A stretch of DNA of 28,685 nt, from IMG/VR virus record IMGVR_UViG_3300031237_000263, positions 1 through 28,685 of that record. The stretch is one strand, 5' to 3'. This document shows, piece by piece, positions 18,721 to 28,224 of this stretch. The notes below the pieces were generated by a model. It was not told the origin of the DNA. It saw only the letters and a program-made list of their open reading frames with translations, and ran no database searches. How positions within the stretch are numbered: position 1 is the first letter of the stretch; each line of letters starts with the position of its first letter. A program made the translations under genes and the position numbers. This stretch comes from a virus.

Positions 18721-19338
18721 TCACGCGGCCTTGCGCTGAACGCCCGCGACCCGGATCAATTCCGCCGCGAGCAACTCCGAGCGCTCCCGCTCGACGAGGA
18801 TCTTCAACTCCCGCGCTGACAGGCCGGCCAGGGCAGCCTGCCGCCGAGCGCGACGGTTCTTTTCACGCGCCGCCCGGAAGGCCATGGCGATGTCGGCCGA
18901 TGCTTCCAGGGCAGTCTGGATCGCTGCCCGGACCATGGGATGGTCGGCCAGCCGGGGCGGCCCTTCGACCGTTTCCAGCAGGTCGCCGGTCGGCTTGGCA
19001 CTAACCGGCGCCTTGCCTTCCAGGAGGTCCAGCAACCAGCGCCGAAAGCGGGCAGCCGGGGGTGTGCGGGCCAGGATGGTCAGTAGCAGGGCGCCACGCG
19101 TCGAGAAGACGCGCACCTGCTGCGAACCGCCCCCCGTCTGTTCCAGGATCAGCCGGGTCTCATCGGCGGTGAATTCGTCGCTGTGACGATTGTACAGATT
19201 GAGGACGGCCCGGTTGTGAGCGAAGCCAAGGGGGGCACCAATCTGATGATCCCTTAGCCAGATTTGCCCCTCCATTCGCAGCCCATCCAGCCGCGTCCGG
19301 TCGTAGAGAAGAGGGATGTTGGTGGTGTCGTTCGGCAT
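18721..19338 (-). CDS. Phage antirepressor (BRO/P22_AR-type N-terminal domain)
   Basis: 205 residues from the ATG at 19338, seven bases after an AAGGA ribosome site. The N-terminal half, with IPLLYDRTRLDG, GQIWLRDHQIGAPLGF, VLNLYNRHSDEF and TGGGSQQVRVFSTRGALLLTILARTPPAARFRRWLLDLLEG, matches antirepressors that inactivate phage repressors or related regulators by direct binding. The C-terminal half is helical and charged (REKNRRARRQAALAGLSARELKILVERERSELL), likely for oligomerisation. Upstream is a structured 314-bp leader resembling the C4-controlled ant region of P1. The gene's 3' end has a degenerate second copy downstream, see 18520-18615. Confidence 0.82.
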   Translation of the reverse strand: MPNDTTNIPLLYDRTRLDGLRMEGQIWLRDHQIGAPLGFAHNRAVLNLYNRHSDEFTADETRLILEQTGGGSQQVRVFSTRGALLLTILARTPPAARFRRWLLDLLEGKAPVSAKPTGDLLETVEGPPRLADHPMVRAAIQTALEASADIAMAFRAAREKNRRARRQAALAGLSARELKILVERERSELLAAELIRVAGVQRKAA

Positions 19339-19652
19339 CTGCCGATCCTTGTCCTTGGTGTCATGGGACGCCGATAGACGGCTTTTCACAGCCACCTGGC
19401 GGCGGGACGGTGAAAACCTGCACCAAGGAACAGGTGTCGCTTCTTCCCCTTGCGGGTGTTTTATCCGCGACCGTCCCACCATAGGGTGGTTGCCCGGGCG
19501 AACTCCGGGCACGACAAACCCCGCGCAGAAACACTGGCGGGGGTCCCGCCTTGATGTCTTTCTCCGCACCGGATCGCTCGGCGCGGCCAGCCCTTTCGGG
19601 GCAGGGAGTTTTCACCCTCCACCTCCGAGATAGGGCTGGGGCGGGGAATTGG
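19339..19652 (-). ncRNA. Structured antirepressor leader, C4-like antisense RNA candidate
   Basis: No convincing gene lies in this 314-bp stretch. On the minus strand it has several features of the C4 region of phages P1 and P7, where a short RNA blocks expression of the antirepressor downstream: GGTGAAAAC (19616-19608) is complementary to GTTTTCACC (19417-19409); GGTGGGACGG (19480-19471) pairs with CCGTCCCGCC (19410-19401), with one G-U; TGCCCGG/CCGGGCA (19511-19491) forms a 7-bp hairpin with a 7-base loop; and CCACC/GGTGG (19489-19476) offers an alternative fold. A frame ending at 19361 runs through it, with pieces like PPYGGTVADKTP reminiscent of the small Icd-type frames of such loci. Family membership is my inference from architecture. 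Confidence 0.45.
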
Positions 19653-20243
19653 TCAAGCATCCTCTTGCCCCACACAGGACAGGCGCCCGACCTGGCAGTC
19701 GGCGCAGAGGATACGAAGATTGGCGATATCGAAGGCGCGGTCAGGCCGCGCGATCCGGCTCTCGACATGGGCGGCGGTCAGCCGGGCCTCATCGGCCGGC
19801 ACCGCCCCGCAGGACATGCAGCGCCGCCCGTAGAGGTGCAGCGCACGCCAGCGCAGGGCGCGCCATTCCTTGGTGCGGAAGAACAGATCGGTGGGCAGGC
19901 CGGCCAGCACGCCATGGTGCTCGGCCTGCCCCGCAAGCCGGGAGATCGGCTTGTGCAGAGAGGCGAGGATTTCCGCCGCATCCTTCTTGGCCAGCCGCTT
20001 TGCCGCTGCTTTCGCCTGCGCCCAGCGGACGTGCTCGCTCTGATGGTGCTTGGCCTTGTTCACCGTCTTCATGGCGCGCAGGGCCTGGGTGATGAAGGCA
20101 TGGCCGCTGATGTCGGTTCCAAGTCGCCGAATGACGGCGACCTTCTCCTTGACCGGCAGGCGCTTGGCTTCCGGACAGCCGAAGCGGTCCGCCAGGACCT
20201 CGAACAGGGCGAGGCGCTGGTAATGGATGGCTTTTTCGCTCAT
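19653..20243 (-). CDS. HNH nuclease-like phage protein
   Basis: 196 residues from the ATG at 20243, 4 bases after the Mor-like stop. The first 110 residues are helical and Lys/Ala/His-rich (KTVNKAKHHQSEHVRW), a part I do not recognise. The last 70 form an HNH-type core: FFRTKEWRALRWRAL, a zinc pair CMSC, the histidine block TAAHVESR, then NLRILCADC with the second cysteine pair. The expected His-Asn-His spacing is roughly kept although the final His is replaced or missing (CADCQVGR), so cleavage is uncertain. HNH proteins often assist packaging, but this one sits in the early/middle part rather than beside the terminase. Confidence 0.78.
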   Translation of the reverse strand: MSEKAIHYQRLALFEVLADRFGCPEAKRLPVKEKVAVIRRLGTDISGHAFITQALRAMKTVNKAKHHQSEHVRWAQAKAAAKRLAKKDAAEILASLHKPISRLAGQAEHHGVLAGLPTDLFFRTKEWRALRWRALHLYGRRCMSCGAVPADEARLTAAHVESRIARPDRAFDIANLRILCADCQVGRLSCVGQEDA

Positions 20244-27723: not shown

Positions 27724-27810
27724 CAGAGGGCCACCGCCGCCGCGTCGCGCAGGACGACGCGGCGGCCGGCTCCTACCATCGCGGTTGCGAATCGAACGAT
27801 GGAGAAGGTG

Positions 27811-28224
27811 ATGAAAAAGCGTGTGGTGACGCAGCGAGAGGCCGCCGACATCCTCGGCGCCTGGGCTGATGTATCTATCCGACCACTTTGCACCCCGACA
27901 AGCGACGCACCGGACTTGAGCTTGGATGATACCTGCGACGAGGTGCTGCGGCTCATTGCCGACGACCCAGACGCCGATTTCTCCATGATACCGCGCGCGA
28001 TCCTGTTGCTCGCTTGGCGGCGCGTGCTGTGGGGTGTTGCCGCGGCGACGCTTGAGCCCAATCGCCCTATGCTCACCATCGCCGAGCACACCTCCGACCG
28101 GCTGCTGCTGCAGATGCTCATTGGCGGCCTGCTGGCGGGATCAAGGTTTCCTGGCGATCAACCCGGTCCTGCAGAGACGCCAACTGCGTCTGGATCTCCT
28201 CCGGGGTCGAAGCGCCTGCACTGA
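27811..28224 (+). CDS. Plus-strand accessory gene embedded in the early operon
   Basis: 137 residues from the ATG at 27811 (GGAG six bases upstream; an ATG at 27799 is the alternative). Acidic, helical protein: VVTQREAADILGAWADV, then LSLDDTCDEVLRLIADDPDADF and MIPRAILLLAWRRVLWGVAAATL, with TIAEHTSDRLLLQMLIGGLLAG. First codon positions are G-rich, as in true genes. From about 28118 it runs antisense through the 3' part of the opposing early gene, where it becomes Pro/Gly/Ser-rich, so its last 35 residues may be an accidental extension. A minus-strand frame (27723-28121) covers the same DNA and abuts its neighbours, but has shadow composition. Function unknown; the first residues allow a winged-helix or regulatory guess only. 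Confidence 0.55.
   Translation: MKKRVVTQREAADILGAWADVSIRPLCTPTSDAPDLSLDDTCDEVLRLIADDPDADFSMIPRAILLLAWRRVLWGVAAATLEPNRPMLTIAEHTSDRLLLQMLIGGLLAGSRFPGDQPGPAETPTASGSPPGSKRLH

Follow-up and report, generated by a model that had tools for sequence, protein, structure and literature searches.

A putative C4-type antisense RNA on an sRNA-Xcc1 scaffold in the antirepressor leader of a Mu-like phage

Does the leader of an antirepressor gene in a Mu-like phage encode an antisense RNA that controls the gene behind it, as the C4 RNA of phage P1 does? The window, i.e., the whole stretch of 28,685 nucleotides analysed here, is taken from a 28.7-kb virus contig with a Mu-like phage gene set that includes a transposase (phrog_310), MuB (PF09077), GemA (PF06252) and a Mor-like activator. 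An earlier interpretation made from the letters of the DNA (the sequence-only reading) had proposed a Mu-like phage with an antirepressor downstream of this leader, and both proposals agree with the profile matches.

18721..19338, minus strand: antirepressor gene (Bro-N type), 205 aa, matching phrog_5060 (anti-repressor Ant) with E 5.7e-21

The Bro-N match of the 205-aa protein (E 3e-4) is under the Pfam cut-off. The region 19652-19339 on the minus strand constitutes the antirepressor leader, with the ATG of the gene at 19338. It is G+C-rich and contains many hairpins, among them the small hairpins noticed before, which lie at 19620-19605, 19550-19536 and 19510-19492. In blastn searches, the leader had no match in phages and matched a single Azospirillum locus in plasmids. 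A repressor gene on which the antirepressor could act was not recognised in the window, which leaves the two levels of immunity control put forward in the sequence-only reading hypothetical. A 141-aa ORF without Pfam or PHROG match (27799-28224, plus strand) is divergent from the early operon, and this position is the usual place of the repressor in Mu-like phages.

Cmscan of the whole window detected sRNA-Xcc1 (RF02221) as the sole RNA family, with 56.3 bits against a gathering cut-off of 53 bits, so that the window RNA scores just 3 bits above the threshold. The match covers the whole model, and both the conserved hairpin-1 element and the three-way junction of the family are present.

19393..19480, minus strand: antisense RNA, sRNA-Xcc1 family RF02221, full model 1-87
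19471..19480, minus strand: stem A, 5' arm GGTGGGACGG, preceded by TAT (the 5' end of the family is usually TATG)
19444..19464, minus strand: hairpin-1 core ATAAAACACCCGCAAGGGGAA, nearly invariant in the sRNA-Xcc1 family
19416..19435, minus strand: hairpin 2, ACCTGT-TCCTTGGT-GCAGGT, whose stem covaries in the sRNA-Xcc1 family
19401..19410, minus strand: stem A, 3' arm CCGTCCCGCC, followed by GCC (family motif NCC)

Compared with shuffled sequences, the RNA has the better fold (z -2.7 for 106 nt and z -5.75 for 326 nt). Across the family, two-sided changes were found at 4/5 pairs of hairpin 2 with 86% of the cells paired, and 72-77% of the cells pair in stem A, for which the alignment is imperfect. 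RNAalifold alone recovered hairpins only, because MAFFT splits stem A, and the pair counts were therefore made on a named structure. The tip of hairpin 1 is invariant throughout the family alignment. Within the hairpin-1 element (window 19464-19444), most columns do not change from alpha- to gammaproteobacteria, and this invariance suggests that the element is a putative binding site of a conserved factor.

Two segments of the RNA, one in the loop of hairpin 2 and one in the junction, are complementary to sites in the flanking leader.

19421..19429, minus strand: b' antisense element TCCTTGGTG in the hairpin-2 loop, a perfect 9-nt complement of b2
19352..19360, minus strand: b2 CACCAAGGA, complement of b', adjoining the Shine-Dalgarno (SD) sequence AAGGA at 19350-19346
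19409..19417, minus strand: a' antisense element GTTTTCACC in the junction, matching a1 and a2
19608..19616, minus strand: a1 GGTGAAAAC, 9-nt upstream complement of a', with the same placement in relatives
19383..19389, minus strand: a2 GTGAAAA, 7-nt downstream complement of a', pairing with the same junction as a1

The elements a' and b' are thus complementary to a2 and b2 by the ribosome-binding site of the next gene. The two complementary 9-mers described before are a1 (19616-19608) and a' (19417-19409), and they are present on the minus strand as claimed. The long-range pairing is real as well, but the b'/b2 duplex consists of 9 contiguous Watson-Crick pairs (-16.0 kcal/mol) rather than the 10 bp initially given. 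The a1 site is exact and sits in a GGAG..CTCC hairpin (19620-19605), whereas b1 is degenerate in the window with ~5 possible pairs (AAGGG). An Icd-reminiscent frame had also been suggested and has to be abandoned, as there is no icd-like small gene between the RNA and the antirepressor; the paired SD leads straight to the ATG at 19338.

We propose, with a probability of roughly 85%, that this leader encodes a C4-type antisense RNA that would block antirepressor translation and is built on the sRNA-Xcc1 scaffold. The proposal is based on the RF02221 match, the exact pairings, permutations over 171 loci, compensatory change in relatives and the P1 layout, and additionally on the occurrence of C4 before homologous antirepressors, the antirepressor families downstream and the expression of relatives. 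The RNA, its structure, its pairings and the compensatory changes in relatives can be read from the sequences. A leader transcript would start upstream of 19620, pass the RNA and continue into the antirepressor gene, and the 88-nt RNA would be cut from it, given that RNase P processes C4 precursors at a comparable stem. The freed RNA would then bind the antirepressor mRNA in trans, with a' on a2 and b' on b2 beside the SD, and prevent its translation. With translation blocked, the repressor would not be inactivated and the prophage would stay silent. Potentially, a1 competes for the antisense RNA and thereby favours antirepressor synthesis, either as part of the transcript or on a short, terminated leader; the a1/b1 RNA would accordingly be an anti-antisense RNA.

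In the leader of most relatives, a TTGACA promoter-like sequence precedes a1, which lies in a GGAG..CTCC hairpin; b1, a T-run hairpin and one further hairpin come next, ahead of the RNA. Recognisable versions of these elements are found in the window, where the T-run is weak.

19627..19656, minus strand: possible promoter TTGACC-N18-TATCTC, placed by position against relatives
19536..19550, minus strand: terminator-like hairpin between a1 and the RNA with a weak U-run (hairpin plus T-run in relatives)

A consensus promoter scan of the leader did not call a promoter. In most loci, NCC (79% and 70% C) comes after stem A, and TAT or a comparable triplet stands before it. For C4 precursors, RNase P cleavage at a GG motif is described in PMC5320573 with reference to Hartmann 1995, and C4-type RNAs of Acinetobacter are apparently processed at a GG motif (PMC5320573). 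The stem of the window RNA with its 3' NCC flank is consistent with RNase P processing. Relatives are expressed: the sRNA-Xcc1 copy of EHEC is abundant in RNA-seq (PMC5331693), and seven copies are transcribed in Xylella (PMC12189769).

As antisense element and target are located ~60 nt apart on one transcript, the same pairings would also form in a purely cis-acting leader, in which the hairpin-2 loop folds onto the SD of the same mRNA and no separate small RNA exists. We regard this as unlikely, because Northern and RACE data show the Xanthomonas RNA, the known member of the family, to be a separate molecule of 88 nt (PMC2996969), because stem A seals the RNA off as a domain of its own, and because the NCC at the 3' flank is tRNA-like. 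Moreover, P1 C4 has the same layout and is processed and trans-acting, according to what PMC5320573 cites from the original work.

The C4-type antisense RNA proposed here closely follows the arrangement in P1 and P7 (C4, RF01695; c4-a1b1, RF03163). In both cases the order is a1 b1, antisense RNA, a2 b2 and start codon with near-equal spacing; a three-way junction is formed, a' lies in the junction, b' in the hairpin-2 loop, and an antirepressor follows downstream. In the P1 record, a1 is found at 48255-48261, b1 at 48269-48276, c4 at 48343-48419, a2 at 48423-48429, b2 at 48452-48459 and icd at 48470. The window differs from P1/P7 in its degenerate b1 and in the lack of an icd gene, and in its RNA the conserved ATAnAAnACCCGnAAGGGGAA element takes the place of the short UUCG-type hairpin 1 of C4. 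This shared layout, together with C4 being carried by related antirepressors, could indicate that the window RNA is a true member of RF01695. However, no C4 match was obtained in the window even at E=10 (gathering threshold 45; 68.8 for the P1 control), and hairpin 1, which is nearly invariant, is unlike that of C4, making membership very improbable. At the level of Rfam models it is refuted; deep common ancestry with C4 is possible. The covariance-model search that had been suggested thus failed for the C4 family and succeeded for RF02221. The C4-like control proposed in the sequence-only reading is well supported by the P1-like antisense layout and by strong compensatory change across loci; assignment to RF01695 fails. 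In Rfam, C4 belongs to clan CL00128 and RF02221 to none.

The sRNA-Xcc1 RNAs have been described as integron-encoded, virulence-regulated trans-acting sRNAs (PMC12444791, PMC12189769). In the open-access literature, we found no paper tying sRNA-Xcc1 to C4-type or antirepressor control; in a study on Xylella, C4 and sRNA-Xcc1 stand side by side in an annotation table and are not connected (PMC12189769). Two other systems bear some resemblance. IsrK-AnrP of Gifsy-1 (RF01394) likewise has a terminated leader RNA upstream of an antirepressor, where readthrough yields the mRNA and the short leader in trans lifts antirepressor translation ~140-fold (PMC4825925). This effect was ascribed to mRNA refolding and coupling through orf45, with C4 RNA unmentioned (PMC4825925), and the window differs in having no orf45-like gene. 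The a1/b1 region of P1 scores as isrK with 35 bits, under the isrK cut-off. The sar RNA of P22 (RF00262), also found in SPN3UB, is an antisense RNA against an antirepressor too, but it is encoded on the strand opposite its target and not in the leader of the target.

When the flanks were dinucleotide-shuffled 20,000 times, a 9-mer b2 match arose in 0.055% of the shuffles, a 9-mer a1 match in 0.26% and a 7-mer a2 match in 2.7%, while b2 and a2 never occurred jointly. A DNA pattern describing the conserved hairpin 1 was used to gather relatives and matches at least 120 viral and at least 119 bacterial contigs; all related loci checked with Rfam (20/20) exceeded the RF02221 cut-off. For 171 non-redundant loci, pairing of the antisense region was scored against the flanks of the same locus and against those of other loci. 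Using fixed offsets, since scripted parsing of hairpin 2 fails in a minority of loci, b'/b2 pairing of at least 6 nt was observed in 120/171 loci (17.5 expected on swapping loci), a'/a2 pairing in 99 (22.3 expected), b'/b1 pairing in 147 (29.5 expected) and a'/a1 pairing of at least 7 nt in 123 (16.4 expected). The observed means of all four pairings were reached in 0/5000 permutations, and since related loci have sequences in common, swapping them makes for a conservative control. Across the 171 sRNA-Xcc1 loci, the four pairings occupy fixed positions, typically with a1/b1 ~100-75 nt before the RNA, a2 ~10-20 nt and b2 ~30-50 nt after it. Loop sequences vary, and 88 distinct b' sequences still pair over 7 nt or more with b2, the 3' end of which is mostly 7-12 nt ahead of a start codon.

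The two nearest relatives of the antirepressor in viral contigs (57% and 49% identity) both have a Mor-like gene upstream. These loci, L003 and L002, have the layout of the window and different loops, each complementary to its own SD. In L003, the loop TCCTGCGG pairs with CCGCAGGA at the SD, with a1 being GGTAGAAG and b1 CCGCAGG; in L002, b' pairs with TCAGAGG at the SD and with GTCAGAGG upstream. The loop changes in these two relatives are compensatory. Neither locus matches C4 or sRNA-Xcc1, because hairpin 1 differs. Chance complementarity or a composition artefact, which a leader full of hairpins and G+C might invite, is refuted by the shuffle, locus permutation and nearest-relative controls and is scarcely credible. 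The RNA-antirepressor cassette is present twice in L002; the second copy (L002:1930-2420) appears to be decaying, with stem A and the exact b2 match broken, and its protein is 80% identical to that of the window over 81 aa.

The ORFs downstream of sRNA-Xcc1 loci belong mainly to antirepressor families (n=109; counts may overlap), namely Bro-N (15), Rha (11), KilA-N (11), P22_AR_C (10), AntA (6), P22_AR_N (5) and ORF6N (4), in addition to SymE (2). C4 was found at the same place before homologous antirepressors, picked by protein search alone, in APSE-1, Vibrio phage O395, PhiR26_1 and Aaphi23. Hence, members of one gene family can have either RNA in front of them. One phage contig (L036:2422-3753) contains in tandem isrK and C4, sRNA-Xcc1 with a gene downstream, and again isrK and C4. 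In three Pseudomonas loci (L132, L133, L236), an ORF of 29-32 aa overlaps a larger gene by 8 nt, which recalls the icd-ant coupling of P1. A group of 28 Xanthomonadales loci kept a1/b1 (b1 in 28/28) and is without a2/b2, which shows that not every family member works on the next gene. Here, L134, L150, L185, L206, L216 and other Xanthomonadales have coevolving a1/b1 and no a2/b2 near the next start; SymE (L134) or an unassigned protein family with the motif xxPEDSQLRLxxLRxYxxFLAxLAxPR is found downstream. The target of these RNAs may be located elsewhere.

In summary, this study offers a testable function for sRNA-Xcc1, an orphan family found widely in both phages and proteobacterial genomes, which recent papers continue to read as a virulence regulator. 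As a tentative extension, the odds of which we put somewhat below even, the whole family would represent a second, very widespread scaffold of C4-type immunity switches, in which hairpin 1 binds a conserved host factor, the a1/b1 leader RNA triggers prophage induction by working in trans as an anti-antisense RNA, and the Xanthomonadales cassettes keep only the antisense/anti-antisense pair. With the proposed control, C4-type regulation would reach into Mu-like phages and cover many families of antirepressors, and the specificity of immunity in these phages may be determined by an 8-nt loop and the SD site that matches it, both predictable from sequence alone.
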